Below, piece by piece: positions 2,338-35,178 of a stretch of 50,417 nucleotides of DNA (position 1 is its first letter; each line of letters starts with the position of its first letter). This stretch comes from Deltaproteobacteria bacterium. GTDB taxonomy: Bacteria; Desulfobacterota; Desulfobacteria; Desulfobacterales; Desulfosarcinaceae. The position numbers and the translations under genes are program-made. The notes beneath the pieces were generated by a model. It was not told the origin of the DNA. It did no database searches and was given only the letters and a program-made list of their open reading frames with translations. The stretch lies in NCBI GenBank assembly GCA_020444075.1, contig JAHLLR010000036.1:1-50417 (forward strand), read 5' to 3'.

Positions 2338-3720
2338 ATGGGCATTGAACCGGAGCGCATCAGCATTCTCAACCGGAATGCCGTACAAAAAGGAGCGTGG
2401 GTGCTCTACTGGATGCAGCAGTCCCAGCGGGCCCATGACAACCCGGCCCTGGAATACGCCATCTCCCGGGCCAACCGTCTGGACCTGCCCGTTCTGGTGG
2501 CTTTTGCGCTGACCGACAGCTACCCGGAGGCCAACCTGCGCCATTACCGCTTTATGCTGGAGGGGCTGGCTGAAACCCGTCGCCAGTTGGCCGGACGCCA
2601 CATCGGCATGGTGGTGCGCAAGGGCGATCCCGCCACGGCGATCGGCCCGCTGATGGACCGGTCGGCCCTGCTGGTCTGCGATGTGGGCTACACCCGCCAT
2701 CAGCGCGGATGGCGCCAGGCGTTGGCAGCATCCGCCCCTTGCCGGGCCATCGCCGTGGAAGGTGATGTGGTGGTGCCTGTGGCTACCGTATCCCCCAAGG
2801 CCGAGTATGCGGCCCGCACCATTCGCCCCAGGATCCACAAGCACCTGGAGCGGTTCCTGGTGCCCTGTCCCCGGTACCGGCCTAAACGCGCATCCATCGC
2901 TATCGGAATGGAAAGCCTGGACCTTGGCGCCATCGACCCGATCCTGGAAGGTCTCGCGATAAACAGGACGGTCCCGGCCGTGACACCATTTTTCAAGGGC
3001 GGCCCGGGGGAAGCCAAGAAGCGGCTGCGCCGATTCATCGCCCGGCACCTGCACCGTTATGAAGCCAATCGTAACCAGCCCCAGACCGACGACATCTCCC
3101 ACATGAGCCCCTACCTGCACTTCGGCCAGATCTCGCCGGTGTTCCTGGCCCTGCAGATCGCCAATGCACCCGCTGGCTCACCAGCGGACCGCGCCGCTTA
3201 TCTGGAGGAGTTGATCGTACGCCGTGAACTGGCGGCCAATTTCGTCCACTACACGCCGGACTATGACCAGTACCACTGCCTGCCCGCCTGGGCGCAAAAA
3301 ACGTTGGCGGAACACGCCGCCGACCGGCGCGAGATCATTTACGACCGGCAAACGCTGGAGGCGGCCAACACCCACGATCCATACTGGAATGCCGCCATGG
3401 CGGAAATGCGCGACACCGGTTTCATGCACAGCTATATGCGCATGTACTGGGGCAAGAAGATCATCGAGTGGTCGCCGTCGCCGGAACAGGCGTTTGAAAG
3501 GGCACTCGCGCTGAACAACCGATACTTCCTCGATGGCCGGGACCCGAACTCATACGCCGGCGTGGGCTGGGTCTTCGGCCTGCACGACCGGGCATGGTTC
3601 GAGCGTGGGATTTTCGGCAAGGTGCGTTACATGGCGGCATCCGGTCTCGAACGCAAATGCGACATCCGCGCTTACATTGAAAAGGTTGCGGCGCTCAGCC
3701 GCAGGGTCGGCGGAAGGTAA
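2338..3720 (+). CDS. phrB: Class II deoxyribodipyrimidine (CPD) photolyase
   Basis: This enzyme uses light and FAD to split cyclobutane pyrimidine dimers. The N-terminal alpha/beta antenna domain contains YWMQQSQRAHDN, typical of class II enzymes. The C-terminal helical FAD domain contains FMHSYMRMYWGKKIIEWS and ALNNRYFLDGRDPNSYAGVGW, class II landmarks, followed by GRDPNSYAGVGWVFGLHDR. From the ATG at 2338 the product is 460 residues, normal for the class. An in-frame ATG at 2263 would add 25 residues without family resemblance. Its AGGAGG sits too close to be ideal, whereas an AAGGAA lies about 11 bases before 2338. The gene stands alone on the plus strand and converges on the octahaem cytochrome gene. 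Photolyase in an anaerobe suggests a habitat at times exposed to light. Confidence 0.93.
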   Translation: MGIEPERISILNRNAVQKGAWVLYWMQQSQRAHDNPALEYAISRANRLDLPVLVAFALTDSYPEANLRHYRFMLEGLAETRRQLAGRHIGMVVRKGDPATAIGPLMDRSALLVCDVGYTRHQRGWRQALAASAPCRAIAVEGDVVVPVATVSPKAEYAARTIRPRIHKHLERFLVPCPRYRPKRASIAIGMESLDLGAIDPILEGLAINRTVPAVTPFFKGGPGEAKKRLRRFIARHLHRYEANRNQPQTDDISHMSPYLHFGQISPVFLALQIANAPAGSPADRAAYLEELIVRRELAANFVHYTPDYDQYHCLPAWAQKTLAEHAADRREIIYDRQTLEAANTHDPYWNAAMAEMRDTGFMHSYMRMYWGKKIIEWSPSPEQAFERALALNNRYFLDGRDPNSYAGVGWVFGLHDRAWFERGIFGKVRYMAASGLERKCDIRAYIEKVAALSRRVGGR

Positions 3721-3785
3721 TTACTTCAGGACCAAGGGCCTTGCCACGGTTACCCTCGGTTTCCAGGGCAAAGACCCGGTTGAAC

Positions 3786-5288
3786 CTATCGTTTTTTCAT
3801 GATCAGATCGCGGGTCTGCTGCCAGTCCTTCATCTCCATGATGGCCTTGGTCAGGTGGTAGCGGCCGTCTTCAAATACACCGTAATCCCCGCCGCCGGCC
3901 ATGGCCGACACAAACCGGATGTTGTTGGCGTAGAGCAGCCAGATGTCGCTCCAGCGGCGTTCGATGTACTCGTCGAAAATGCTGCCGTTGGCTGCCAGAC
4001 CGTGGGCGTAGTCTTTTCCCCAGATTGATGCCATCACCTGTGTGGCCGTCTGCACGGCCTGGTTGGATGTGGCGATGGTGTTGTCCAGGCGTTGAAAATA
4101 GCCCTGCACCCATGAGGTGTCGTGACACGCCAGGCAGGTGCGCTGCATGGTTGCCCGCCGGGCGGCGGCCTCGTCTGCGGATATCAGGTAATCGGCGGCA
4201 AAACCGCCGTCCAGGTCGGTGGGCAGGGGCAGTCCGGCCTTGTTTCGAATAAGGGTGGTGTCCGGCGATTTGGGCTGGGGGTGGGCGTAGACCAGGCCAA
4301 AGATCCGCCAGCCCAGCCGATCGCTCATCTGATGGGTGCGCGGGTTGACCACGTCGCCGTCGGTATTCACCGTCAGACTGATGTGGCAGGTCGCGCAGGT
4401 GGGTGCCTGGATGTCTTCTCCGATGACCCACGGGACCTTGTTGAAGTCCCACCCGTTATTCATGGAAGAGAAGATATTGCCGTGCTTGCTGGCGGAATAG
4501 ACCTTGAACGCCGGTACATCCGGACCCACATGGCACTCCTTGCAGGTATAAGGCTTTCGGGCCATTTCGATGGAAAACCGGTGGCGGGTGTGACAGGCCG
4601 AGCAGGCGCCCCGGCTGCCGTCTAAATTGACGCGGCCCACGCCCTGGTTGGGCCATCCGGCGATCACGGGGAATTCCAGTTCTCCGGCATCGGTGTCGCG
4701 GGTTTCGGTACCGGTCACCTGCAACCGGGTGCCATGGCAGTAGTAACAGGCATCCGCCCGGGTCATGTCATTGGCCGGTGTAAAATGAACCCGATCCGGT
4801 TTTACTTCCGCCGCCCCTAAGATGCTGCGCTGCAGATCGTTGTAAAGCGTGTTTTCAGACAGGTTCTTCTCGGCCATGGCCATGATGTTTTTGGAATACT
4901 GCTCGCGCTCGGTGGTGTGACAGGTGGCGCAGTCGTCCGGGCTGACCGCCACATGGATTTCGTAGCCGTTGTGTTCGAAGGTGTCTGCATGGGCCCCGCC
5001 CCTCAGGGTATGGCACTCGGCACACCCCACGCTGGTTGCCTGGAGCGCCTCGGGCACGTTGCTGCCGGACATGCGTCGCTGCATTTCGTCGACGGTCATG
5101 GCTGTTTTGGGCGTGATCATCGCATGGCGGCTCTTCTGCCAGTCGGCAACGATGCCCGGATGATAGATGGCGTGGCAACCCAGGCACTCCTGCGTGGCAT
5201 CGCTGACGGGTGCTGCGTCGCCGAAGGCGGTGCCGACGGTAAACAAAACCAACACGTTTACGATTACGAGAAAACAGGTTTGTCGCAT
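3786..5288 (-). CDS. Periplasmic octahaem c-type cytochrome, hydroxylamine oxidoreductase-like
   Basis: The 500-residue product has a signal peptide (about 1-24) and eight CxxCH haem motifs. Their first cysteines are at about 35, 89, 120, 181, 229, 249, 298 and 385. Eight motifs in about 350 residues with a long haem-free helical C-terminus match octahaem hydroxylamine oxidoreductase-like cytochromes. Members either oxidise hydroxylamine or, in anaerobes, probably reduce nitrite or hydroxylamine. I cannot decide whether the tyrosine that crosslinks the P460 haem is present, so direction and substrate are open. The ATG has a GGAGG 5-6 bases upstream. The gene begins 32 bases after the stop of the transglutaminase gene on the same strand, so it may be the last gene of the amidoligase operon. 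An independent stress role (NO, hydroxylamine) is equally possible. Confidence 0.85.
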   Translation of the reverse strand: MRQTCFLVIVNVLVLFTVGTAFGDAAPVSDATQECLGCHAIYHPGIVADWQKSRHAMITPKTAMTVDEMQRRMSGSNVPEALQATSVGCAECHTLRGGAHADTFEHNGYEIHVAVSPDDCATCHTTEREQYSKNIMAMAEKNLSENTLYNDLQRSILGAAEVKPDRVHFTPANDMTRADACYYCHGTRLQVTGTETRDTDAGELEFPVIAGWPNQGVGRVNLDGSRGACSACHTRHRFSIEMARKPYTCKECHVGPDVPAFKVYSASKHGNIFSSMNNGWDFNKVPWVIGEDIQAPTCATCHISLTVNTDGDVVNPRTHQMSDRLGWRIFGLVYAHPQPKSPDTTLIRNKAGLPLPTDLDGGFAADYLISADEAAARRATMQRTCLACHDTSWVQGYFQRLDNTIATSNQAVQTATQVMASIWGKDYAHGLAANGSIFDEYIERRWSDIWLLYANNIRFVSAMAGGGDYGVFEDGRYHLTKAIMEMKDWQQTRDLIMKKR

Positions 5289-5320
5289 GAGGTCCTCCGT
5301 GGTTGTTGGATTTCAGCCGG

Positions 5321-6196
5321 TTAGGCTTGCACCGCCACGTCAACCGTCACGGACAGCGAGTGCACGCCGCCGCCCATGACCACTCCTTTGACCGGGGTGA
5401 CGTCGCCGTAGTCCCGCCCCCAGGCAACGGTGATGTGGCTTTCACCGGCAATCAGGTTGTTGGTGGGATCCAGGTCCACCCAGCCCGCATCCGGAACGAA
5501 CAGGGAGATCCAGGCATGGGAGGCGTCTGCGCCGACCAGCCTGGGTTTTCCCGGCGGCGGTTTCGTTTCCAGATAGCCGCTGACGTAGCGGGCCGCCAGC
5601 CCCAGGGCACGCAGGCAACTGATGGCCACATGGGCGAAATCCTGGCAGACTCCTTTACGGTCGGCCAGCACCTGGTCCACGGTGGTGTCCACGGTGGTGG
5701 CCGACTTGTCGTAGGTGAACTCCGTGAAGATTCGATGCACCAGGTCCAGGGCTCCTGTCAGCACGGGTGTGCCCGGGGGGAAGGATGGGTGCGCATAGGC
5801 TGCCGCCGCGGGGCTGATCGCGATCAACGGACTGACAAAGACGAATTGGTTGGCCTCGAGTTCTGCCGGCGATTCATGGGCGGCCAGTCGCCGGGCCACA
5901 GTTTCCCAAGGGGGCGTACCTGCCGCTGCCGGTGTGACCGGCAGGGATGTTTCCACCCTGCTGACGGTGCTCATGGCCAACTCCTCGTGGGGCTGCTGCA
6001 CCATGAATACATGGGCGATGTTGCCGAAGTAGTCCATTCGCTGGTGCAGGTATTGGGGCTCCGGCACGATGGTCAATCGGCTTTGAATCACCCGCTGGGT
6101 GACGGTCTCGCGAGGGTGCAGGAACAGCTCGTTCTGGGACAGGGAGGCCGGTTCCGAATAGCGGTAGGCCGTTTTGTGGGTGATGCAATACCTCAT
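5321..6196 (-). CDS. Transglutaminase-like cysteine protease-fold protein (amidoligase cluster, set two)
   Basis: The 291-residue cytoplasmic protein has a bacterial transglutaminase N-terminal beta domain (about 1-90) and a transglutaminase core (about 145-260). The catalytic triad is visible: Cys184 in GVCQDFAH, His227 in SHAWISLF and Asp243 in DLDPTNN. Such proteins cleave or transfer amide bonds; in this conserved cluster they have been proposed to act as peptidases that reverse or edit ligase products. The start is fixed by an ATGA overlap with the stop of the ATP-grasp/alpha-E fusion gene, a sign of translational coupling. A longer frame reaching 6715 exists but lies inside the upstream gene. 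A second transglutaminase is fused to DUF2126 in this operon. Confidence 0.92.
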   Translation of the reverse strand: MRYCITHKTAYRYSEPASLSQNELFLHPRETVTQRVIQSRLTIVPEPQYLHQRMDYFGNIAHVFMVQQPHEELAMSTVSRVETSLPVTPAAAGTPPWETVARRLAAHESPAELEANQFVFVSPLIAISPAAAAYAHPSFPPGTPVLTGALDLVHRIFTEFTYDKSATTVDTTVDQVLADRKGVCQDFAHVAISCLRALGLAARYVSGYLETKPPPGKPRLVGADASHAWISLFVPDAGWVDLDPTNNLIAGESHITVAWGRDYGDVTPVKGVVMGGGVHSLSVTVDVAVQA

Positions 6197-8718
6197 GGCT
6201 GGCGATCGCCGGGGATCGTGGAGTAATGGGGTGTTGCCTGAACCCGGGTCAAGTAGTGGGCGCTGATCTGCCGGGTAAAATCCTTGAGGCGGACATCCAC
6301 GAGATCGAGAAAATCCGCCAACCCCTCGGTTTGGGCAACCCCTTTGCTGCAGCGCAGGCCGGAAAGATCCAGCAGCCGAACGGCGGTGAGCATCTCCAGC
6401 GCCAAACGCTCTTCCGGGCTGGCGAAGCGGCGGTCGCTCTGTCGGGGCAGGTGCTCCACGTGGGCAACCAGCTGGCTGAACTGGAAGGCCAGGGATTTGG
6501 GGTTGCTTTCGTCCACGATCAACAGGTCCAGCACCGGCGCCAACTGATAGGCCGACCGGTACCGCGCCCGGTAGGTCATGATGCTGTCGGCCACTTCCAG
6601 CAGCGCCTCCAGAGCGCTGCGAAATTCGCCGCACACCTGGGGCAGGCCGATACGGATCAGGCCGGCCTGGTTCATGGCACGCTCCACCCGCCGTCCCATG
6701 TCCATGAAGCGCCACCCCAGCCCGCGGGTCATACTCTCCATGGCCAGTCCGCTGAAGGCGCTCAGCGTAAACAGCGTGTCGTCCAGCAGCTCCAGCGGGT
6801 CGCTGGCCGGATTGTCGGCAAAGTCTTCCAACCGGTTGATCACGCGCCAGGAATCCAGGGATAGCCGGTCGCGTACGTTGCGGGCGGCGTCCTGCACCCG
6901 CTTGAGGATGGCGACCACGCTTTCGGGCCGGTCCTTATCGTAAAGAGCGGCATTCAGGTGGGCCGACAATTCCCGATAACGCGGGATATCGAAACCATCG
7001 TCGGGAACCGGGGGAAAGATGCGGTCCGCCCTGAGCAGGTTCAACAGAAACGGCAGTTCGGGGATATCTCCCGGCCGGGCTTCACCGGAAAGCCGGCGGA
7101 AGACGGATCGCAGGAGCCGGACCAGGCCCTCGGCCCGTTCCAGGTAGCGCCCCAGCCACAGCAGGTGGTCGGCCACCCGGCTGGGCAGATCGCTGCTGCG
7201 CCGGAACTCGGCCACTGCCTGGAGTCCGCCCATCAGGCTGAATGGCTCCACCGGCTGGTCGGACAATACCCAGATATCTTTGCTCTGCTGATGTTCCGGA
7301 CTCCCGCTGATCAGGGTATCCACATCCGCAGCGGTGATGGCCAGGCCGCCGGGCATGACGGTGAACCCTTCGTCGGTGGCGCAGGCAAAGACCCGCAACA
7401 GCGTGTTGCGGGAATTGACGCTGCTGCGGTCCCAGGCCGGGACCACCGACGGGCGGACCGGCTCCCGGGCCATGAAGGTATGGGGCGAGGCCTGGATCGC
7501 GGCCATCCGTTCGTCCGGCAGGGGGGGGGGCGTCGAGCGGTCCATGGCCGGACCCACGATCAATTGTTCCAGATTGGCCAAAACATAATCCCGCCCATCG
7601 GCGGTCCCGCACCACCACGCCGGGTGGTTTTCCAACAGCAGGTTTTCTCCCGTCAGCTGTTGGCAGAGCGCGGGCAGGAAAACCGACAGGACCGGCGTGT
7701 CCACGAATCCGCTGCCGATGGGGTTGACGATGTCGATATTCTGCTCCCGGGAGACCTGGATGAGTCCGGCCACCCCGGTCGCCGTCTCCCGCCGCAGGGC
7801 GAAGGGATCGCTGCTGTCGTCCGAGGTAAGCCGGATGATCGCCTCCACCGGCTCCAGTCCGGCCAGTTTTTTGAGGAACACCTTGCCGTTGCGCACGGTC
7901 AGATCCTGGCCTTCCACCAGCGGGTAGCCCAGGTACCGGGAAAGCAGGGCGTGCTCGAAGTAGATGCGGCTGTCCGGCCCCGGAGAGAGCAGGACGATGC
8001 CGGGGTCATCGCGCCGGAGGGAGGCCCGCTGAATCAGGCTGTGGTGAAAGCTGTGGAAGAAAGGCGCCAACCGCCGAATCTGGGTCTGGTGGTACAACTC
8101 GGGAAAGACCCGTGAGATGACGATGCGGTTTTCCAGGGCATAGCCCAGGCCGGCCGGGTTGCCGCCGTAATCCCGAAATACCCGGAAGCGCCCGTCCGCT
8201 CCCCGGTAGAGGTCGGCCGCGTAATAGGTCAGAAACCGGCCGCCGGCGGGTTGAATGCCATGGCACGGCCGCAGGAAATGGGGGTTGGCAAAAACCAGCT
8301 CGGAGGGAATCCGTCCCTCCTTGAGCAGGTGCTGGGGGCCGTAGGTGTCCGCCAGAATCTTTTCGAGCAGCCGCGCCCGCTGGATCAGGCCGGCTTCCAG
8401 TCCGGCCCATTCTCCTGCGGTGATGGGCAGCGGGATCATTTCCAGGGACCAGGGGGTTCCCTTCCCGGTGGGGTCGTCGAAGGGGTTGTAGGTGGCCCCG
8501 TCCTCATGGCGCATGCGCCTGACCCGGTCCTGTCTGAGGTTGAGCGTCTCGGCCCCCGTCGCGTCCAGCGCCGTGACCAGGGGCTGCCAGTGCTCGCGGG
8601 GTCGTGCCGGCGAGGAAAACGCCTCACAATGGGCATCGCCGGGAAAGACAACCGTGCCGAACAGGGATGCCGGCGCAGCCTGGGATGCCGCCGGGCGGTT
8701 GAGTTCCGGGTCGATCAT
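6193..8718 (-). CDS. Circularly permuted ATP-grasp / alpha-E fusion protein with degenerate ligase site
   Basis: Residues about 20-490 match the circularly permuted type 2 ATP-grasp family (DUF404/DUF407), and about 505-841 the all-helical alpha-E domain (DUF403). ATP-grasp proteins of this group are predicted to form amide or peptide bonds using ATP. Compared with the stand-alone paralogue at 13096-14526, this copy has lost key residues. LEDNLRCPSG is replaced by FRDYGGNPAG (181-190). The lysine plus GGYG loop is replaced by LIVGPAMDRSTPPP (386-399). QGGGSKD is replaced by EHQQSKD (475-481). It may therefore be a regulatory or scaffold form. The alpha-E part starts with a DHLLWLGRYLERAE motif, as in the stand-alone alpha-E protein. 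The gene is 67 bases after the DUF2126 gene and overlaps the next gene by 4 bases. Confidence 0.9.
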   Translation of the reverse strand: MIDPELNRPAASQAAPASLFGTVVFPGDAHCEAFSSPARPREHWQPLVTALDATGAETLNLRQDRVRRMRHEDGATYNPFDDPTGKGTPWSLEMIPLPITAGEWAGLEAGLIQRARLLEKILADTYGPQHLLKEGRIPSELVFANPHFLRPCHGIQPAGGRFLTYYAADLYRGADGRFRVFRDYGGNPAGLGYALENRIVISRVFPELYHQTQIRRLAPFFHSFHHSLIQRASLRRDDPGIVLLSPGPDSRIYFEHALLSRYLGYPLVEGQDLTVRNGKVFLKKLAGLEPVEAIIRLTSDDSSDPFALRRETATGVAGLIQVSREQNIDIVNPIGSGFVDTPVLSVFLPALCQQLTGENLLLENHPAWWCGTADGRDYVLANLEQLIVGPAMDRSTPPPLPDERMAAIQASPHTFMAREPVRPSVVPAWDRSSVNSRNTLLRVFACATDEGFTVMPGGLAITAADVDTLISGSPEHQQSKDIWVLSDQPVEPFSLMGGLQAVAEFRRSSDLPSRVADHLLWLGRYLERAEGLVRLLRSVFRRLSGEARPGDIPELPFLLNLLRADRIFPPVPDDGFDIPRYRELSAHLNAALYDKDRPESVVAILKRVQDAARNVRDRLSLDSWRVINRLEDFADNPASDPLELLDDTLFTLSAFSGLAMESMTRGLGWRFMDMGRRVERAMNQAGLIRIGLPQVCGEFRSALEALLEVADSIMTYRARYRSAYQLAPVLDLLIVDESNPKSLAFQFSQLVAHVEHLPRQSDRRFASPEERLALEMLTAVRLLDLSGLRCSKGVAQTEGLADFLDLVDVRLKDFTRQISAHYLTRVQATPHYSTIPGDRQP

Positions 8719-8785
8719 TCAATTCATGCCTCGTGTTGCGGTTCACGGGCGTCGCCATAGGCCGCCCGGAGCCGATTTACTCCGT

Positions 8786-11700
8786 TCACCGACGCAAATC
8801 AAGAGTATACGGAAAATATGGATTGGCTTCCTCGACCGGCACCTCAGCCAGTATGCCGGGGGTGTGGCCGCCGGGAACGAAGCGAGCGTTACGCCGTCCT
8901 TCGGCTTCGTAAGCGTTAACCGGAAACACGTCATAGTGGCGCCCTCCCGGATGGCCCACATGGTAGGTGCAGCCGCCGACGGACCGACCGGACCAGGTGT
9001 CGAAAAGATCGATGGTCAGGGGGGTGTGCACGCCGATAGTAGGGTGCAGGCAGGATGGCGGCTGCCAGGCCCGATAACGGATGCCGGCCACGAAAACGCC
9101 TTCCATGCGGGTCGGCTTCAGGGGTACGCGCCTCCCGTTGCAGACCACGATATGGCGTTTTCCGGTCATGCCGGAAACCTTGATCTGAAGCCGTTCGACC
9201 GACGAGTCCACATAGCGGGCGGTCCCCCCGCCGCCGGGCTCCTCGCCCAGCACATGCCAGGGCTCCAGGGCCTGGCGCAGCTCGATCTCCATGCCCTGGC
9301 AATCCACTTTTCCGTGGATCGGGAAGCGAAACTCGAAATGGGGGTGGAAAAAATCCATGGATACCGGAAAGCCGGCCCGGTTCAGCGTCTTCAGTACGTC
9401 TGCGAAATCGTCGTTCAGCGGCTGGGGCAGCATGAAACGGTCGTGGAGCCGGGTGCCCCAGCGCACCAGCTCCCGGCGGTAGGGGGTTTGCCAGAACCAG
9501 GCCACAAACGTCCGCAGGAGCAGCTGCTGGGCCAGGCTCATGCGGGCGTGTGGCGGCATCTCAAAGGCACGGAATTCCAGCAGCCCCAACCTGCCGGCGG
9601 CGCTGTCCGGTGAATAGAGCTTGTCGATGCAGAACTCGGCGCGGTGGGTGTTGCCGGTGACGTCCACCAGCAGGTGGCGGAACAGGCGGTCCACCAGCCA
9701 CGGCGGACATGAACGGTCCGGACCCGTTTGCCGGTCCAGCTCGGCAAAGGCGATCTCCAGTTCATAGAGGCTGTCGTTCCGGGCTTCGTCGATACGCGGC
9801 TGCTGGCTGGTGGGTCCGATGAAAAGGCCGGAAAAAAGAAACGAAAGGGACGGGTGGTTGTTCCAGAAGGAAACGAAGCTGCGCAGCAGGTCCGGCCGGC
9901 GCAGAAAGGGGCTGTCCGCCGGGGTTGCACCGCCGAGGACGATGTGGTTGCCGCCGCCGGTGCCGGTGTGGCGGCCGTCGACCAAAAACTTTTCGGTGCC
10001 CAGGCGGGTCTGGCGGGCTGTTTCGTAAAGCGCGGTGGTGCTGTCGACCATCTCCCGCCAGCTGTGCATGGGCTGGATGTTCACCTCGATGACCCCGGGG
10101 TCGGGCGTGATCTTGAAACTGTCCAGGCGCGGGTCATAGGGCGGGGTGTAGCCTTCGATCAGCACCGGCAATCCCGTCTTTGCCGCGGTGGCCTCAATGG
10201 CGGCCACCAGCTCCAGGTACCCTTCCAGGGAGACAATCGGCGGCATGAACACATACAGCCGGCCCTCGCGGGGTTGAACGCACAAGGCCGTACGGACCAC
10301 CCAGGCGGCGGATTCGCCGACCGCCGGGGCCGGTTCGGTAAAAGGCTTGGGCTGGGTGCGCACGCCTTCACCCACCCGTTCCGGCGGATGTCCTTGCAAA
10401 GCCTGTTGGCCCCTGTGAAGCTCGGGCAGCGGTCCCCGGTCGGCCATGGGATCCAGGGGGTGGTCATAGGGGAAATCCGCCTTGGAAACCCAGGGCAGAG
10501 ATTCCAGAGGCAGGCGCAGCCCGGCCGGGGAATCGCCGGGCAGCAGGAACATGTGCCCTCCCCGCAACGGCCAGGGGCCGCTCTTCCAGGAGCCGTGCTG
10601 CAGGGGCAGGACGTAACCCACCACCGCCCCCAGCCCCCGCTGGAAGGCGCCCGCCATACGGCTCCGGGCCTCGGGATCGTCCAGCCGGGGGTCGGTGGGA
10701 TCCACATTCACCGGCAGCCGCTGCTCCTTGTGCAGGTAATACAGGACGTCCTCGTAGCCTTCGCGGATGTATCGCCGGCTCACCGACAGCGTGTCGGCCA
10801 GGGTGTCGATGAAAATCTTGGCCTCGACGATGCCGAAGCCATAGTCTTTGGACACGTCGGCGATCCAGCGGTCGTCGGTCCACACCGGTCGGCCGTCCCG
10901 GCGCCAGTAGCACCCCAGGGCCCAGCGGGGCAGGGATTCCCCCGGGTACCATTTCCCCTGTCCGTAGTGCAGCAGTCCGCCGGGGGCCCACTGCTGCCGC
11001 AGCCGTTTGAGCAGGGCCTCGGCCAGCTGCTGCTTTTCCTCCCCCAGGGCTCCGGTGTTCCACTGGTCGCCATCCATGTCGTCGATGGAAACGAAGGTGG
11101 GCTCTCCCCCCATGGTCAGGCGCACATCCGCCTCGGTCAGCTGACGATCCACCCGGTCCCCCAGTTCAACGACGGCCGCCCAGACCTCCTCCGGGTAGGG
11201 TTTTGTGGAACGGGGTGCTTCGCGAATGCGTTGAACGCTCATGCTGTGGCTGAAATCCACCTCGCATTTGTCCAGGGCGCCGGTGATGGGGGCCGCGCTA
11301 CGGGGCTGCGGTGAACAGGCCAATGGAATATGTCCTTCGCCGGCAAAGAGTCCCGACGTGGGGTCCATGCCCACCCATCCGGCCCCGGGGAGATAGACCT
11401 CGGTCCAGGCATGCAGGTCGGTGAAGTCGGCTTCCGGACCGGAGGGTCCGTCCAGGGATTTGACGTCCTGGGCAAGCTGGATCAGATAGCCGGACACGAA
11501 GCGGGCGGCCAGTCCCAGATGACGCAGGATGTTGACCAGCAGCCAGGCCGAGTCCCGGCACGACCCGCTGCCCAGGGTCAGGGTCTGTTCGCAGCTCTGC
11601 ACGTTGGGCTCCATGCGGATCAGATAGCGGATGTCGCGGCTCAGCCGCTGGTTCAGATCCACCATAAAATTGTTGGTCGGTCTGGCGCTGCGGTCGATCC

Positions 11701-12097
11701 CGGCCAGGTAGGCTTTGAGTTCCTTGCCCGCCGGTTCTTTGGCCAGATAGGGTCCCAGTTCCGCCTTAAGCGTCGGCTCATAGTAGAAGGGGAAGGTTTC
11801 GGCATCGGGTTCCAGGAAAAAATCGAAGGGGTTGATGATGATCATCTCCGCCACCAGATCCACTTCCACCTGCAACTCGGTCGTTTTTTCCGGAAACACC
11901 AGGCGGCCCAGATAGTTGCTGAAAGGGTCCTGCTGCCAGTTGATGAAATGGTTTTTGGGGGTCACCGTCATGGAGTAGCTCAGAATCGGCGTCCGGCAAT
12001 GGGGCGCCGGCCGCAGCCTGACGATGTGGGGGGAGAGGGAGATGCGCCGGTCATAACGGTACGAGGTCTTGTGGTTCAGGGCAACATGGATTCCCAC
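8786..12097 (-). CDS. Transglutaminase fused to DUF2126 putative amidoligase (set one)
   Basis: This 1103-residue protein has a transglutaminase N-terminal domain and core (about 1-270) with the triad Cys180 (GSGSCRDSA), His229 (LHAWTEVYL) and Asp245 (GMDPTSG). A large DUF2126 region (about 300-1100) follows. Pfam names DUF2126 a putative amidoligase related to glutamine-synthetase-type COOH-NH2 ligases. Features here include MGGEPTFVSIDD, GGGNHIVLGG and LLEFRAFEMPPHARMS. A protein with both a probable amide hydrolase/transferase and a probable ligase suggests making and editing of peptide tags or small peptides; the substrate is unknown. The gene lies 12 bases after the alpha-E gene. Length and domain order are normal for this family. 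Confidence 0.92.
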   Translation of the reverse strand: MGIHVALNHKTSYRYDRRISLSPHIVRLRPAPHCRTPILSYSMTVTPKNHFINWQQDPFSNYLGRLVFPEKTTELQVEVDLVAEMIIINPFDFFLEPDAETFPFYYEPTLKAELGPYLAKEPAGKELKAYLAGIDRSARPTNNFMVDLNQRLSRDIRYLIRMEPNVQSCEQTLTLGSGSCRDSAWLLVNILRHLGLAARFVSGYLIQLAQDVKSLDGPSGPEADFTDLHAWTEVYLPGAGWVGMDPTSGLFAGEGHIPLACSPQPRSAAPITGALDKCEVDFSHSMSVQRIREAPRSTKPYPEEVWAAVVELGDRVDRQLTEADVRLTMGGEPTFVSIDDMDGDQWNTGALGEEKQQLAEALLKRLRQQWAPGGLLHYGQGKWYPGESLPRWALGCYWRRDGRPVWTDDRWIADVSKDYGFGIVEAKIFIDTLADTLSVSRRYIREGYEDVLYYLHKEQRLPVNVDPTDPRLDDPEARSRMAGAFQRGLGAVVGYVLPLQHGSWKSGPWPLRGGHMFLLPGDSPAGLRLPLESLPWVSKADFPYDHPLDPMADRGPLPELHRGQQALQGHPPERVGEGVRTQPKPFTEPAPAVGESAAWVVRTALCVQPREGRLYVFMPPIVSLEGYLELVAAIEATAAKTGLPVLIEGYTPPYDPRLDSFKITPDPGVIEVNIQPMHSWREMVDSTTALYETARQTRLGTEKFLVDGRHTGTGGGNHIVLGGATPADSPFLRRPDLLRSFVSFWNNHPSLSFLFSGLFIGPTSQQPRIDEARNDSLYELEIAFAELDRQTGPDRSCPPWLVDRLFRHLLVDVTGNTHRAEFCIDKLYSPDSAAGRLGLLEFRAFEMPPHARMSLAQQLLLRTFVAWFWQTPYRRELVRWGTRLHDRFMLPQPLNDDFADVLKTLNRAGFPVSMDFFHPHFEFRFPIHGKVDCQGMEIELRQALEPWHVLGEEPGGGGTARYVDSSVERLQIKVSGMTGKRHIVVCNGRRVPLKPTRMEGVFVAGIRYRAWQPPSCLHPTIGVHTPLTIDLFDTWSGRSVGGCTYHVGHPGGRHYDVFPVNAYEAEGRRNARFVPGGHTPGILAEVPVEEANPYFPYTLDLRR

Positions 12098-12109
12098 GGA
12101 CTGTCCTTT

Positions 12110-13084
12110 CTACTGCTCGTTGGTGGATGTCTCGATCAGGGGCGTGAGGTTGAAGAAGGTCGTTCCGATAGCCCCGTCCACCTGATTGAGGCGGGTTTGC
12201 AGACCGTCCAGGTACTCGTGCAAACCGTGATCGACCACTTCATCGATGTCGGTGTATTCCAGATCCGCCTTGAGGCGGCCCAGCCGTTTCTCGGCAAGGT
12301 TGTTGGCCGATCCGGGCGGCGAGCCGCTGATACGGTGCAGGCAGGTCTGGGCCTTGGCGATGCAATGGCGGATGGAGCGGGGAAACTGGCTGTCGAAAAT
12401 CAGAAAACCGGCCACCTTGCGAGGGGTGATATGGTGATGTTCCTTACGGTACATCTCGAAGGCGCTGGCGGATTTAAGCACCGCCGTCCACTGGATGTTG
12501 TCGATGGGGGTGTTTACCAGGTCCGCCTGGGGCAGCAGCATGAAGTATTTGACGTCCAGTATCCGGGACGTTTTGTCGGCCCGTTCCATCATCATGCCGA
12601 TACGGGCGAAGTTCCAGGCCTCGCCGTGGCTCATGGTGGAGTCCATCAGGCCGGTGAACAGGTGGCTGCGCATCTGGATGATCTTGAAGAAGCGGTGGGG
12701 GTCCTCAAGGGCCATGGTCAGGCTCCCGTTGCCGGCCAGTTCCAGGTAGAAATTGTTCAGATGCTCCCACATTTCCGAAGAGATGATTTCGCGGATGGAC
12801 CGGCCGTTTTCCCGAGCGGCCGCCAGGCAGGAAAGAATGGAATTGGGGTATGTCCGGTCAAAGGTCAGGAACCGGATCACCGCCTCCTGGTTGTAATCCG
12901 GGGAACTTTTTTCGAACCGGTCCTGGTCGCCGGTGATCATTACCAACGGCTCCCAGTGCTTGCCTTTTTCCGACGGCATGTCCAGCAGCAGGTTGAGGTT
13001 GACACTGATGAAACGGGCCACATTTTCGGCGCGTTCGATATAGCGGCACATCCAGTAGATTGAGTTGGCTACGCGGCTGAGCAT
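12110..13084 (-). CDS. Alpha-E domain protein (DUF403, set one)
   Basis: The 324-residue protein begins MLSRVANSIYWMCRYIERAENVAR, the hallmark of DUF403/alpha-E proteins, and is predicted to be almost entirely helical. It keeps the family's repeated charged motifs, including HGEAWNFARIGMMMERADKTSRILDVKY. Its biochemical function is unknown. It always travels with circularly permuted ATP-grasp ligases and transglutaminases and may be a substrate-holding partner. Spacing to both neighbours is 11-12 bases, so it is co-transcribed with them. Its start has the AGGAGG of the short junction with the ATP-grasp gene. Confidence 0.92.
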   Translation of the reverse strand: MLSRVANSIYWMCRYIERAENVARFISVNLNLLLDMPSEKGKHWEPLVMITGDQDRFEKSSPDYNQEAVIRFLTFDRTYPNSILSCLAAARENGRSIREIISSEMWEHLNNFYLELAGNGSLTMALEDPHRFFKIIQMRSHLFTGLMDSTMSHGEAWNFARIGMMMERADKTSRILDVKYFMLLPQADLVNTPIDNIQWTAVLKSASAFEMYRKEHHHITPRKVAGFLIFDSQFPRSIRHCIAKAQTCLHRISGSPPGSANNLAEKRLGRLKADLEYTDIDEVVDHGLHEYLDGLQTRLNQVDGAIGTTFFNLTPLIETSTNEQ

Positions 13085-13095
13085 CGATCTTCCTC

Positions 13096-14526
13096 CTATA
13101 GCACCCAGGTGTCCTTGCTCCCCCCGCCCTGGGAAGAGTTGACCACCAGGGAGCCCCTGGTCAGGGCCACCCGGGTCAACCCGCCGGGCTGTACGTAGAT
13201 TTCCTCGCCAAAGAGCACGTAGGGTCGCAGATCAACATGGCGCCCCTCAATGCGGTCGCCCACGATGGTGGGCACCCGGGACAGGGAGATGGTGGGCTGG
13301 GCCATGTAGTTGCGCGGTTCGGCAGCTATTTTCCCGGCAAAGGCCGCCCGCTCCGTTTCAGAGGCATGGGGGCCCACCAGCATGCCGTATCCGCCGGATT
13401 CGTTGGCGGCCTTGACCACCAGCTGATCCAGGTGCGCCAGCACATATGCCCGGTCTTGGTCGTTCCGGCAGATGTAGGTGGGCACGTTGGGCAGGATAGC
13501 CTCCTCGCCGGTGTAGTATTTGATTATCTTGGGCACATAGGCGTAGATTACCTTGTCGTCGGCGATGCCGGTGCCCGGTGCGTTGGCCATGGCGATGCGT
13601 CCCGCCTTGTAGACGCCGATGAGCCCCTTGACGCCCAGCAAGGAATCCGGACGGAACACCTCCGGGTCGATAAAATCGTCGTCGATACGCCGGTAGAGGA
13701 CGTCCACGCGCTTGAGGCCCTTGGTGGTGAGCATGTGAACGAATCCGTCGGACACCACGAGATCCCGGCCCTCCACCAGTTCCACGCCCATCTGCTGAGA
13801 GAGGAAAGAGTGTTCGAAGTAGGCGCTGTTATAGATGCCGGGGGTCAGTACACCGATGGTGGGCGATTGGACGTGATCCGGTGCCAGGTGCTCAAGAACC
13901 TTCAGCAGGTTGGAGGGGTAATCGTCCACCGGACGCACCCGGGAGGCCTCGAAAACCTGGGGAAAGGTGCGCTTGAGCACCTGGCGGTTTTCCAGCACAT
14001 AGGAGACGCCCGAGGGGCAGCGCAGATTGTCTTCGAGCACATAAAAGCGCCCGTCGCGGTCCCGCACCAGGTCGGTGCCGGTCACATGGCACCAGATTCC
14101 CCGGGGCGGAGTGAACCCCTCGCACTCCCGGCGGTAGGTGCGGCTGGTGAGGACCAGGTCTTCGGGAACCACCTTATCCTTGAGAATCTTCTTGTCGTTG
14201 TATACGTCCTGAATAAATTCATTGAGGGCGAAGATGCGCTGCTTCAACCCGCTTTCGATCTGCTGCCAGTCGCTGCCGGAGACGATGCGGGGGATGATGT
14301 CGAATGGCATGATCTTTTCGGTGCCTTCATCGCGGCCGTAGACATTGAAGGTGATGCCCATTTTGAGCAGCATGGCTTCGGCTGCGCTCTGGCGCATGGC
14401 CAGATCCCCTGGGGGCAGCGACTCGATTTTGTCCACCAGCAATTGGGACCCGGGGCGGGGATTGCCGTTGGCATCGATCAGTTCATCGTAATAATCACCC
14501 GGATCGTACGTCCTGAATGTCTCCAT
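13096..14526 (-). CDS. Circularly permuted type 2 ATP-grasp protein (set one, intact ligase)
   Basis: This 476-residue protein spans DUF404 and DUF407 and is predicted to activate a carboxylate with ATP and join it to an amine. It keeps the expected conserved residues: LEDNLRCPSG (164-173), a VEGRDLVV segment, YRRIDDDFIDP (278-288), Lys372 followed by a GGYG loop (378-381), VQPGGLTR, and NSSQGGGSKD near the C-terminus. The frame extends upstream to 14706, but the ATG at 14526 starts the family-like sequence (METFRTYDPGDYYDEL) and has GGAGG about 10 bases before it. It is the first gene of the operon, about 170 bases downstream of a strong promoter. Substrates are unknown. Confidence 0.93.
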   Translation of the reverse strand: METFRTYDPGDYYDELIDANGNPRPGSQLLVDKIESLPPGDLAMRQSAAEAMLLKMGITFNVYGRDEGTEKIMPFDIIPRIVSGSDWQQIESGLKQRIFALNEFIQDVYNDKKILKDKVVPEDLVLTSRTYRRECEGFTPPRGIWCHVTGTDLVRDRDGRFYVLEDNLRCPSGVSYVLENRQVLKRTFPQVFEASRVRPVDDYPSNLLKVLEHLAPDHVQSPTIGVLTPGIYNSAYFEHSFLSQQMGVELVEGRDLVVSDGFVHMLTTKGLKRVDVLYRRIDDDFIDPEVFRPDSLLGVKGLIGVYKAGRIAMANAPGTGIADDKVIYAYVPKIIKYYTGEEAILPNVPTYICRNDQDRAYVLAHLDQLVVKAANESGGYGMLVGPHASETERAAFAGKIAAEPRNYMAQPTISLSRVPTIVGDRIEGRHVDLRPYVLFGEEIYVQPGGLTRVALTRGSLVVNSSQGGGSKDTWVL

Positions 14527-14905
14527 CGGGCCTTTTCCTCCATGGTCTGAATTGTGACTGCGTAGGGTTCTATCGCATATCGATCGGACGAATTTCCATC
14601 GGGCAGCAAGCGTGGTGGCGGTTTGACATATCGGCTGTCTCAGAGCTGCCTGGGTGTCTTTTGTCGAAAGGTCGACCCCCTGATTATTCGCATGCGAGTA
14701 TGTCAAGAAGGCGCCGGCGTGTCAATCCATAGGTCAATACAGCAGGTTGCCTCCATGTCGGCAAGCCACCGCTTGCATTTCCTTGATTGCGGCAGGGTTT
14801 CATGACAAGGTGATAATCGTTTCTGCTAAGCCGGCATCCGATGGATACCTCCGTTTCACTTCGAGGCGATAGATCTTTTTATTGTTACCCTTTCAAGAGG
14901 ATATC
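14527..14905. other. Divergent intergenic region, amidoligase operon / mgtE
   Basis: It contains the minus-strand promoter described separately. I looked for an M-box-like Mg2+ leader before mgtE and recognise none. No convincing gene is present; the short ORFs here lack coding character. Confidence 0.55.
14697..14725 (-). promoter_or_regulatory. Sigma70-like promoter of the amidoligase operon
   Basis: On the minus strand there is a perfect TTGACA (14725-14720), a 17-base spacer and CATACT (14702-14697; 4 of 6 to TATAAT). This places transcription start about 165 bases before the ATP-grasp ATG at 14526. It is the best promoter match in this gap. It suggests constitutive or moderately regulated expression; I see no clear operator over it. 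Confidence 0.6.
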
Positions 14906-16270
14906 ATGATGGATTCAGCTTCCCCCTGGGAAACCCTCAGCCAACGGATCGCTGCGAAAAACAGCGTTGAACTGACCGCATTTATTGACACCCTCAGCCC
15001 GCAGGAGACGGCCAGGGCTATCTCCCGGCTGACCGAGGAAGAACAGCATCGTCTGTTCACCCTTCTCAGCCCCGAGGATGCCGCCGACGTGATTGAGGAC
15101 ATCCCGGAAGCCCAGGCCGCGGATCTGGTGGAAGATATGCCATCGGCACAGGCGGCGGCGATCATGGAGGAACTGACCAGCGATCACCTGGTGGATGTGC
15201 TGGGCGAAATGGATGAGGATGCGAGCCGGGCGATTTTAGCGAAAATGGGGCGCAAAGATGCCGAAGAAGCCAGAATGCTGCTGGATTACGCACCGGACTG
15301 CGCCGGTGGCCTCATGATTTCCGAATTCCTTGCCTATAAAACCGACCATACGATCCAGGATGTGCTCGATGACCTGCAGGCCAATCGGAGTAAATACGTC
15401 GATTATCATGTTCAGTATTTTTATGTAGTTGACCGGGAAGGGAAGCTGGCCGGTGTGCTTCGTATGCACGACCTGCTTTTTCCCGCCCGGGAGACCCGGC
15501 TCACCCAGGTGATGATCCCTTCCCCGCTCAGTGTGTCGGACAAGGCTTCGCTTCGCGCGTTGGAAGAATTTTTCGAAGAGCATCACCTGTTCGGTGTGCC
15601 GGTTGTGGACGATGGGCGGCGGCTGGTCGGCGTGGTGCTGCCGGAAGCCATCGAGGAGGCGGTCAATAAGCGCAAGACAAAAACGTTTCTGCGGTTGAGC
15701 GGCATCATTGGCGGTGAGGAATTCCGGACCATGCCGCTGCTTTCCCGTTCCGGACGCCGTCTCTCCTGGTTGACCATGAATATCGTCCTCAATATCGTTG
15801 CCGCCAGCGTCATCGCCCTGTATCAGGATACCCTCGCCGCCGCCATCACCCTGGCGGTTTTTCTGCCCATGGTCAGCGATATGAGCGGCTGTTCGGGGAA
15901 CCAGGCCGTGGCGGTTTCCATGCGGGAGCTCTCCCTGGGCCTGGTCCGGCCGGGCGAACTGCTCTGGGTTATGGCAAAAGAGGTCCGGGTCGGCATCATC
16001 AACGGTCTGGTGTTGGGCCTGCTGCTTGGCGGGGTTGCTTTTTTCTGGAAAGGGAACCCGTGGCTCGGGGTCGTGGTCGGCGGGGCATTGGCGGCCAATA
16101 CGCTGGTTTCCGTCCTTCTCGGCGGGGTGCTGCCCCTTGTGCTCAAGCGGTTGAAACTGGATCCTGCCCTGGTTTCGAGCCCGCTGCTGACAACGGCCAC
16201 CGACATGTGCGGCTTCTTTTTCGTTTTAAGTTTTGCCGCGGCGGTTCTGCCTAAACTCGAAGGCATGTAA
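14906..16270 (+). CDS. mgtE: MgtE-family magnesium transporter
   Basis: The 454-residue protein has the three MgtE parts: a helical N domain (about 1-130) with the repeated LSPEDAADVIEDIPEAQAAD motif, a tandem CBS module (about 135-255), and a five-helix membrane domain (about 285-450). MgtE is an inner-membrane Mg2+ channel gated by Mg2+ in the N and CBS domains. The membrane aspartate expected in the last helices is present (TATDMCGFFFVL). The usual GGNAGTQ loop reads MSGCSGNQAVAVSMREL here, a variant that may mark a subfamily. I chose the ATG at 14906 because an AAGAGG lies 5 bases before it; an upstream TTG at 14882 would add eight residues. Confidence 0.92.
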   Translation: MMDSASPWETLSQRIAAKNSVELTAFIDTLSPQETARAISRLTEEEQHRLFTLLSPEDAADVIEDIPEAQAADLVEDMPSAQAAAIMEELTSDHLVDVLGEMDEDASRAILAKMGRKDAEEARMLLDYAPDCAGGLMISEFLAYKTDHTIQDVLDDLQANRSKYVDYHVQYFYVVDREGKLAGVLRMHDLLFPARETRLTQVMIPSPLSVSDKASLRALEEFFEEHHLFGVPVVDDGRRLVGVVLPEAIEEAVNKRKTKTFLRLSGIIGGEEFRTMPLLSRSGRRLSWLTMNIVLNIVAASVIALYQDTLAAAITLAVFLPMVSDMSGCSGNQAVAVSMRELSLGLVRPGELLWVMAKEVRVGIINGLVLGLLLGGVAFFWKGNPWLGVVVGGALAANTLVSVLLGGVLPLVLKRLKLDPALVSSPLLTTATDMCGFFFVLSFAAAVLPKLEGM

Positions 16271-23182: not shown

Positions 23183-25069
23183 CTATTGCGGTTTTTCCGC
23201 CAATTCATCGAACCTGCACTTGAGTATCAGAGAATCCCCATCAAAAGCGGTCTTCACCTTGTAGGGAAGCGTTTTGAACAGACCCACCATGGCTTTGTTC
23301 TGAGGAGAGGTGTATGCCACCAGACCTGAAATACCGTTTTCACGGGCGGCCCGGGCCAGCTTCCGGATAAACAGCTTACCCAGCCCTTTGCCCTGATACT
23401 CCTTGGAGATGGAAAACGCCACCTCCGCGGTGTTGCTTTCGAGGAGCAGCAGGTATTCACCCACCCCCACCACCTTGCCGAAGCCGAATTCCCCCACTAC
23501 CGCCACCAGGGTGAGGTCTTTGATGTAGTCGATCTGGGAGCGCGTTTCCACATCGCTGCGGTCGAAACTGAGCTTCTCGTGGAAAAAGCGCAGCTGCACA
23601 TCCTTTTTGTCCAGGCTGTAGTAGTGCTCCTGAATGCGGCGCTCATCCACCGGCTTTGACGGTCGGATGGTGATCTCCTCACCGTCGCAAACGATGGTCT
23701 CTTCCAGGTGGATGGGATAGATACCCTTGGTGGCCTCTCCCAGTTGGCGCTCGCTGCCGATGAGCCTCGCCTCCTTGGCGGCATCGAACAAGCGGTCGCG
23801 GTGGTCCGGGTGGGCGATGCCGATCATGGCCAGCACCCGCTCCTGAAGGCTTTTGCCGAACAGGTTCACCGCACCGTACTCGGTGACCACGTAATGCACA
23901 TCGCCTCGGGGGACGACCACGGCGGGACCGTCCAGGGTCGGAACGATATTGCTGCGCTTGCCGTCCTGTGAGGTGGAGTAAAGCATGAGGATGGACTTTC
24001 CCCCCTTGGACCGCTTGGCACCCCGGACAAAATCGGGGATGCCGGAAACGCCGGCGAAAAACGTGTGCTCGGAGGCCTCGGCCGCCACCTGCCCCGTGAG
24101 GTCGATGGTGTGGGCCACGTTCATGGAGATCATGCGGTTGTGCTGGGCGATGATGAAGGGGTCGTTGACATAGTCCGAGGGCCGGAAATCAATCCCCGGG
24201 TTGTCATGCAGAAACTCATACAGGTTCTGGCTGCCGATGGCGCAGGACGCCACCAGCTTGCCTTCATTGAGTCCCTTTTTGCGGTTGGTAATCACTCCCG
24301 AGGCATACAGGTGCATCACGTCGTCGGTGATGTACTGGGAGTGAAACCCCAGATCGTTTTTACCGGCCAGGGCTTTGACCGTGGCCTGGGAGGCGGCGTC
24401 CAGGCCGATCTGGAGCGTCGAGCCGTCGTCCACGAATCGGGCGATGTGTTTGCCGATCCATTCGGCCGCCCCGGATCGCTTGCGCAGGTTGACGGACAAA
24501 ATGGGTTCTTCGTGCTCCACCAGCACATGGACGTTGTTGACGTGAATGAAGCTCTGCCCCATGGTGCGGGGCATTCTCGGATTCACCTGGGCGATCACCA
24601 GATCGGCGCTCTGGGCGGCGGCCAGGGTCACGTCCACGGAAACCCCCAGGCTCATCCAGCCGAAATCGTCCGGCGGGGACACCTGGACCAGGGCCACGTG
24701 GATAGGCAGTTTCCGGGAGAGGAAAAGTCCGGGTACCTCGGACATGTTGATGGGCGTGATGAAGCGCATGTAGCGGGCGATGGCTTCCGTATCCGCCGAA
24801 CCCAGATAGATGGTCCGGATGTTGAGGCTGTGGTCGCGGGTCTTGTCGGCAATTTCGGACAGGGAGGTGGTCTCCCGGCTCATGAGCCGGACGATTTCCA
24901 GCCCGCTGATCCTGACCGCGGCGGCCGACAGTGCCCGGACCAGCGCCTGGGGTTCGCCACTGGCACTGCCGATGAACACCCGTTTGCCGGGGCGGATCAT
25001 GGCAATGGCCTCCTCTGCCGTTCGCTGTTTCTCTACATAACTGTCAGCCCAGTATAGTGACCGTGCCAT
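23183..25069 (-). CDS. Acetyl-CoA hydrolase/CoA-transferase-like protein fused to a GNAT domain
   Basis: Residues about 10-430 match the acetyl-CoA hydrolase/4-hydroxybutyrate CoA-transferase family, with VTEYGAVNLFGKSLQERVLAM near the end of that part. Residues about 460-620 form a GNAT acetyltransferase domain with the acetyl-CoA loop EYQGKGLGK (557-565). Family enzymes move CoA between short-chain acids through a glutamyl-CoA intermediate; the catalytic Glu normally sits in a motif like 'LGIHSEMFSDG'. Here the same place reads LGFHSQYITDD, so Gln245 replaces Glu. The transferase part may therefore sense or bind acyl-CoA rather than turn it over, with the GNAT domain as effector. It lies between the acyl-CoA synthetase and MFS genes; both are plausible targets or partners. 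Confidence 0.88.
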   Translation of the reverse strand: MARSLYWADSYVEKQRTAEEAIAMIRPGKRVFIGSASGEPQALVRALSAAAVRISGLEIVRLMSRETTSLSEIADKTRDHSLNIRTIYLGSADTEAIARYMRFITPINMSEVPGLFLSRKLPIHVALVQVSPPDDFGWMSLGVSVDVTLAAAQSADLVIAQVNPRMPRTMGQSFIHVNNVHVLVEHEEPILSVNLRKRSGAAEWIGKHIARFVDDGSTLQIGLDAASQATVKALAGKNDLGFHSQYITDDVMHLYASGVITNRKKGLNEGKLVASCAIGSQNLYEFLHDNPGIDFRPSDYVNDPFIIAQHNRMISMNVAHTIDLTGQVAAEASEHTFFAGVSGIPDFVRGAKRSKGGKSILMLYSTSQDGKRSNIVPTLDGPAVVVPRGDVHYVVTEYGAVNLFGKSLQERVLAMIGIAHPDHRDRLFDAAKEARLIGSERQLGEATKGIYPIHLEETIVCDGEEITIRPSKPVDERRIQEHYYSLDKKDVQLRFFHEKLSFDRSDVETRSQIDYIKDLTLVAVVGEFGFGKVVGVGEYLLLLESNTAEVAFSISKEYQGKGLGKLFIRKLARAARENGISGLVAYTSPQNKAMVGLFKTLPYKVKTAFDGDSLILKCRFDELAEKPQ

Positions 25070-34985: not shown

Positions 34986-35178
34986 GGGCATTATCCTTTC
35001 GAACACCGCGGGTTTTAGGCGGCGCTTGGCGTTATGAGGTGTGGCGCTTAACACCTATCCGGATATGATAATCACCAAACAACCAAACGCCAACCCCGTT
35101 CAGGGGCTGAAAGGGGATCCCTTCGCAGCCCAACGACCCAACCTTTTAACGGAGCAGGAGCGATGCCACGGGGAAAAT

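Follow-up and report, generated by a model that had tools for sequence, protein, structure and literature searches.

The gene families considered here, and the prediction that they take part in peptide synthesis or tagging, are already known. According to the accessible parts of later papers (PMC6376114, PMC5666114, PMC3597751), Iyer et al. 2009 assigned ATP-grasp, alpha-E and transglutaminase proteins to a system predicted to act in peptide synthesis or tagging. One described relative is the Anbu operon, which encodes an ATP-grasp protein, an alpha-E protein, a transglutaminase and Anbu, and the ATP-grasp protein of Yersinia bercovieri was reported to release phosphate from ATP (PMC6376114, accessible text). 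The same text describes pull-downs in Y. bercovieri that gave no specific interactions among the Anbu-operon proteins, in a four-gene operon without a fusion protein. A second relative is the Burkholderia cenocepacia cluster I35_5080-5083, which encodes a DUF404/407 protein, a DUF403 protein, a transglutaminase-like protein and a large transglutaminase-like protein, and whose expression is NtrC/sigma54-dependent according to the part of the source available (PMC5491218). In Pseudomonas putida, PP_2685 and PP_2688 were higher on nitrate than on ammonium (PMC8050072, available excerpt). The Rlo/Rim systems combine an ATP-grasp protein with a retropepsin, a RimB-like aspartic peptidase partner (PMC12239564, in the portion accessible). 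A metagenomic clone, jj117, with ATP-grasp, alpha-E, transglutaminase and protease genes is tabled among antinematode sources in the accessible part of PMC7764037, a possible hint of a bioactive product. A previous sequence-only reading of the present locus had stated that no product is known, and none was found in the literature searched either.

In this work, the window (the whole stretch of DNA analysed, 50,417 nucleotides) was found to carry a run of five genes on the minus strand, from 14526 to 5321, in the order AG, alpha-E, transglutaminase-DUF2126, ATP-grasp/alpha-E fusion and second transglutaminase. The features are as follows.

14697..14725, minus strand: promoter-like site preceding AG, the first gene; a consensus match only, in a count of such sites not above that in shuffled sequence

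13096..14526, minus strand: stand-alone circularly permuted ATP-grasp protein (AG), 476 aa; PF14403 E=5e-166, 552.7 bits; keeps E165, N167, K325 and K372

12110..13084, minus strand: stand-alone alpha-E protein, 324 aa; PF04168 E=6e-105; ER motif present

8786..12097, minus strand: transglutaminase-DUF2126 protein (TG1), 1103 aa; PF08379, PF01841 and PF09899 (PF09899 1337.6 bits); Cys180, His229, Asp245

6193..8718, minus strand: ATP-grasp/alpha-E fusion, 841 aa; PF14403 over residues 96-460 (407.6 bits), alpha-E over 511-823

7339..8433, minus strand: ATP-grasp domain within the fusion, degenerate (pseudo), by PF14403 match; R182, Y184, P342 and G389 replace E, N, K and K

6250..7188, minus strand: alpha-E domain of the fusion; PF04168 E=4e-75; ER motif present

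5321..6196, minus strand: second transglutaminase-like protein (TG2), 291 aa; PF08379 and PF01841; Cys184, His227, Asp243

The window operon resembles the Anbu operon in having AG and alpha-E proteins of the same kinds together with a transglutaminase-like protein, but no Anbu was found in its genome, and it possesses in addition DUF2126, the fusion and TG2. It also contains the same core protein types as B. cenocepacia I35_5080-5083, and in a B. multivorans record (L195) the AG, alpha-E, a weak TG match, TG-DUF2126, the fusion and TG2 occur together. Unlike the B. cenocepacia cluster, the window operon showed no upstream sigma54-like site when up to 2 mismatches were allowed, and control by nitrogen limitation through sigma54 was therefore dropped as a candidate here. 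The evidence for a link to nitrogen limitation comes from other bacteria, and the lack of such a site at the window operon argues against it here.

The surrounding genome comprises 5.59 Mb in 173 contigs, and both of its PF14403 matches and both of its PF04168 matches fall in this operon. Five genes with junctions of 4-67 bases had been described before, and these junctions and the domain assignments were borne out by the profile matches and coordinates. Along the operon the junctions measure 11, 12 and 67 bases, followed by a 4-base overlap in which the start of TG2 lies over the stop of the fusion. Of the 85 distinct fusion loci read, 26 have the same five-gene order on one strand, so the arrangement is not due to chance, and together with the short junctions this upholds an operon-like arrangement. 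For this locus-order listing, as for the ATP-grasp alignment and the motif counts below, duplicates (identical across the compared part) were collapsed into a single entry. In 8 of the 26 same-order loci an extra small transglutaminase gene lies upstream. Such a gene, upstream of AG, is seen in Desulfopila/Desulforhopalus-type loci (L041, L044, L048, L049, L050 and L056; 272-314 aa), and L036 and L046 also show one in the order listing. The site at 14725..14697 is the sole promoter-like site on the operon strand within 3700..15000, where promoter-like sites (2 found, 2.5 expected) and terminator-like sites (8 found, 9.3 expected) both stand at the shuffled level. On visual inspection, the surrounding bases look similar to those in a near relative (G002, locus L031). 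Divergent from the operon is an mgtE-type divalent cation transporter gene (14882-16270, plus strand). A multihaem cytochrome c gene (3786-5288, minus strand) begins 32 bases downstream of TG2, and its product has a weak likeness to hydrazine dehydrogenase (68.5 bits against a cut-off of 900). This cytochrome (5288..3786) was considered as a sixth operon member and rejected, since of all the loci examined just those of one relative, G002 (L032 and L033), have a homologue after TG2.

The two ATP-grasp domains of the operon differ at the positions which we take to be the ATP/Mg site. The assignment of these E/N/K/K positions is by likeness to glutathionylspermidine synthetase (GspS) and its residues 330, 332, 498 and 533, whose letters were verified in E. 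coli gss. A profile alignment (hhalign) of AG to GspS was not significant, and the equivalence is drawn from motif likeness, a fold match and the GspS residue numbers. For the comparison, 172 distinct ATP-grasp domains were aligned (91 stand-alone and 81 fused, stretches under about 330 residues being excluded). Glu165, Asn167, Lys325 and Lys372 are each present in 91/91 stand-alone AG proteins, whereas in the fusions they are present in 1/81, 0/81, 1/81 and 15/81, respectively. At least three of the four are gone in 81/81 fusions, and all four are gone in 64. The fusion of the window has none of them, with Arg182, Tyr184, Pro342 and Gly389 instead. Six additional fusions (four from plasmid records, two from Desulfobacterota) are also without the Glu, the Asn and the first Lys. 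Lys372 is kept in 0/29 Desulfobacterota-like fusions, the window's among them, and in 15/52 of the rest. Most of the 29 have also lost the glycine-loop positions. AG has 111 near-invariant columns; both fusion groups retain 34 of them and both have lost 22, with E165, N167, K325, G378 and G381 among the lost. One sequence, a single 857-aa frame that scores as an intact ATP-grasp (G264), was considered as a counter-example; it is really a stand-alone AG with a separate alpha-E, TG and Anbu.

Judged from these residues, the fusion very probably does not have an ordinary ATP-dependent ligase in its ATP-grasp domain. The sequence-only reading had seen two versions of the same system, and this description does not fit a fusion family with such losses throughout. 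The presence of two domain sets in one apparent operon could still suggest two parallel ligases forming a two-step pathway, with one ATP-dependent ligation by each ATP-grasp. The residue loss in the second ATP-grasp makes such parallel ligations very unlikely. Another explanation is that the fusion ATP-grasp remains catalytic, either via a changed metal site (a DRTQ- or RDY-like stretch) or by ATP-independent chemistry. The Asp beside the lost Glu (77/81), D152 (76/81) and R279 (80/81) are indeed kept, as is the second Lys in 15/81. A DRTQ-like stretch recurs in fusions outside the Desulfobacterota-like group, and the replacement stretch recurs across phyla. Since fusions outside that group sometimes keep the second Lys (15 of 52) and carry the DRTQ-like stretch, a changed rather than a dead site is possible. 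However, the Asn is lost in all 81 fusions and the Glu and the first Lys in 80 each, and the 29 Desulfobacterota-like members have lost the second Lys without exception and mostly the glycine-loop positions. We regard a changed catalyst as improbable. Conserved loss of the ATP site in this bacterial ATP-grasp family was not found in the literature searched, which covered few subscription papers and Iyer et al. 2009 through citations only. Human TTLL12, in the accessible pseudoenzyme and ATP-grasp literature, may offer a parallel in another ligase family.

At the level of fold, AG is related to the solved chain 3n6x (E=1.5e-160). An AlphaFold2 model of the fusion (pLDDT 81.2, pTM 0.73) gave the same chain as its best Foldseek match (E=5.7e-29), and also matched glutathione synthetases and E. 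coli GspS 2io8 (E=1e-6). The fusion thus shares a fold with the glutathione and glutathionylspermidine synthetases, which are ATP-grasp ligases, but it is without their Glu-x-Asn and lysine positions. No solved relative of the stand-alone alpha-E protein was found by sequence up to E=1. The model of the DUF2126 protein is poor (pLDDT 62.6), with convincing fold matches for its transglutaminase part only. The Pfam name of DUF2126 is putative amidoligase, and its fold may be glutamine-synthetase-like. Iyer and co-workers in 2009 are also said to have treated DUF2126 as a ligase.

The fusion appears to be an old paralogue conserved across phyla. The 81 fused ATP-grasp domains form one clade with a support of 1.0, and the result is the same when the motif columns are removed. 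In a separate tree of 183 alpha-E domains, the 83 fused ones likewise form one clade. Searching with the fusion alignment gave 39 named loci, which by their titles come from Desulfobacterota and relatives, Planctomycetes, Acidobacteria, a Polyangiaceae bacterium, Methylomonas and SAR324. The dN/dS values in three pairs of related loci were 0.18-0.27 for the ATP-grasp domain of the fusion and 0.05-0.11 for AG, which indicates purifying selection on the former domain. The faster evolution of the fusion relative to AG could be taken as a sign of a redundant duplicate in decay. Against this stand the single clade across phyla, a dN/dS well under 1, the 34 AG-invariant positions kept, and the retained motifs of the alpha-E domain and of TG2, which leave decay a highly implausible explanation. 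The ER pair of alpha-E is present in the stand-alone proteins (Glu 91/92, Arg 90/92) and in the fusions (Glu 78/81, Arg 81/81). In TG2 the Cys and His of the triad are kept in 87/87 homologues and the Asp in 86/87, and the Cys-His-Asp triad of TG1 is intact in 75/75. These triads are compatible with the transglutaminase-based editing that had been put forward for the locus. Two minor observations concern single genomes. The SAR324 genome G076 has two fusions (L131 and L052), one less degenerate and in a five-gene operon, the other Desulfobacterota-like and located elsewhere, which hints at transfer. In an Acidobacteria MAG (L067) the fusion is split across two frames.

The distribution of the genes indicates how they may belong together. 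Within the window's own genome and 59 relatives, PF14403 was found in 9/60, with exactly two matches in each. The genes are common beyond this group, PF14403 being above its cut-off in 90/160 sampled Pseudomonadota genomes; matches to AG in phage records amounted to 4/50,697. Synechococcus elongatus, one of the control genomes, matched PF14403, PF04168 and PF09899. A fusion-length copy, defined in the Pseudomonadota survey as a frame of at least 800 aa, occurs in 49 genomes (42 confirmed as fusions by profile and 7 counted on length), and AG is also present in 49/49 of them. Full-length fusion is missing from 41 of the 90 AG-bearing Pseudomonadota, one of which (G171) carries an incomplete fusion next to a contig end in addition to AG. 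Among 31 genomes behind the named fusion loci (drawn from 32 of the 39, with L065 left out), 30 have AG, some as fragments only. In the exception (G067), a 2.4-Mb assembly with the contig starting inside TG-DUF2126, the fusion alone was seen. The PF14403 cut-off was exceeded in 12 of 247 Desulfobacterota genomes (the window's included); of these 12, 4 have fusion and AG, 7 have AG alone (6 of these were fetched) and 1 has a marginal match of 34.6 bits. The genome sets behind the three counts of fusion with AG (49/49, 30/31 and 4/4) overlap in part, and the last includes the window's genome. Within the fetched stretches of the 85 fusion loci, AG was found in 52/85 and TG-DUF2126 in 75/85, and absences there mean little because some stretches stop at contig ends.

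By comparing genomes with and without the fusion, DUF2126 was found in 46/49 of the former and 3/31 of the latter (Fisher p=6e-15, ignoring relatedness), whereas Anbu was found in 28/49 and 21/31 (p=0.48, ignoring relatedness). These tests covered 80 of the 90 Pseudomonadota with PF14403; ten fusion-free AG genomes were left out, one of which (G166) has DUF2126 and no fusion-length copy. In the window's genome no Anbu peptidase was found, and the sole proteasome-family match reads by eye as HslV beside HslU. None was found at E<=1e-8 in 28 fusion-bearing Desulfobacterota genomes either (29 entries, G024 and G063 giving the same places), and three AG-only genomes chosen as positive controls for having Anbu all matched. 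This co-occurrence pattern suggests a core of AG and alpha-E, often accompanied by TG and Anbu, and a dependent module of TG-DUF2126, fusion and TG2, the two of which are joined in the window operon. The genes had previously been divided into AG, alpha-E and TG-DUF2126 on one side and fusion and TG2 on the other, and other genomes contradict this division by placing TG-DUF2126 with the fusion and TG2.

The constant company of AG and the fusion in the 49 genomes, their common fold family and the 52 of 85 fusion loci whose fetched stretch includes AG would agree with a heteromer in which the fusion would act on AG as an allosteric or scaffolding subunit, like active/pseudo-enzyme pairs. However, the 41 AG-bearing Pseudomonadota that have no full-length fusion imply that AG does not need it, and the fusion tracks DUF2126 (46/49 versus 3/31), so that such a heteromer is possible and rather doubtful. 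We lean slightly towards the fusion serving the DUF2126 module. That it was recruited to DUF2126, and not to AG, is argued from co-occurrence, and 3/49 fusion genomes without DUF2126, 3/31 fusion-free genomes with it and G166 are points against. The earlier hint of a heteromeric enzyme gains support in the form of a non-catalytic-partner or heteromeric arrangement, from the presence of AG with the fusion (49/49 and 30/31) and the tracking of DUF2126. The hint of a two-step pathway could survive if the second ligation were carried out by DUF2126, and not with the second ATP-grasp as the second ligase.

We hypothesize that the operon encodes one amide- or peptide-ligating system, in which a catalytic ATP-grasp works beside a non-catalytic twin serving the DUF2126 module; for the full mechanism, predicted from the genes, we see close to an even chance. 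AG with alpha-E would activate a carboxylate using ATP and Mg and join it to an amine, and such catalytic ligation is supported by the phosphate release from ATP described for a relative of AG in the accessible text of PMC6376114. The fusion, without the expected ATP/Mg residues and with its alpha-E domain and numerous other conserved positions kept, may bind the product or an intermediate of AG and so act in the DUF2126 module as an obligate subunit on the substrate side, without catalysis of its own. An additional bond would then be made by DUF2126, and amide bonds may be cleaved, transferred or edited by the two transglutaminase-like domains. In its broadest form, that a single old ATP-grasp paralogue, fused to alpha-E and deprived of its ATP chemistry, persisted in several bacterial phyla as an obligate substrate-handling pseudoenzyme which passes the AG product to the unrelated ligase DUF2126, so that both modules build one, possibly nitrogen-linked, amide polymer or protein tag, the proposal is tentative. 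If the second ATP-grasp is non-catalytic and part of the DUF2126 module, this tells which protein to assay for ATP use and which to employ as bait, and which gene removals should yield differing intermediates.

Elsewhere in the window, a gene at 23183-25069 (minus strand) encodes a fusion of an acetyl-CoA hydrolase/transferase with a GNAT acetyltransferase domain, and a CoA-ligase-type ATP-grasp protein is encoded near it at 25214-27364. Two ORFs of 805 aa (32637-35054) and 434 aa (35443-36747), both on the minus strand, have no Pfam match at E<=1e-8.
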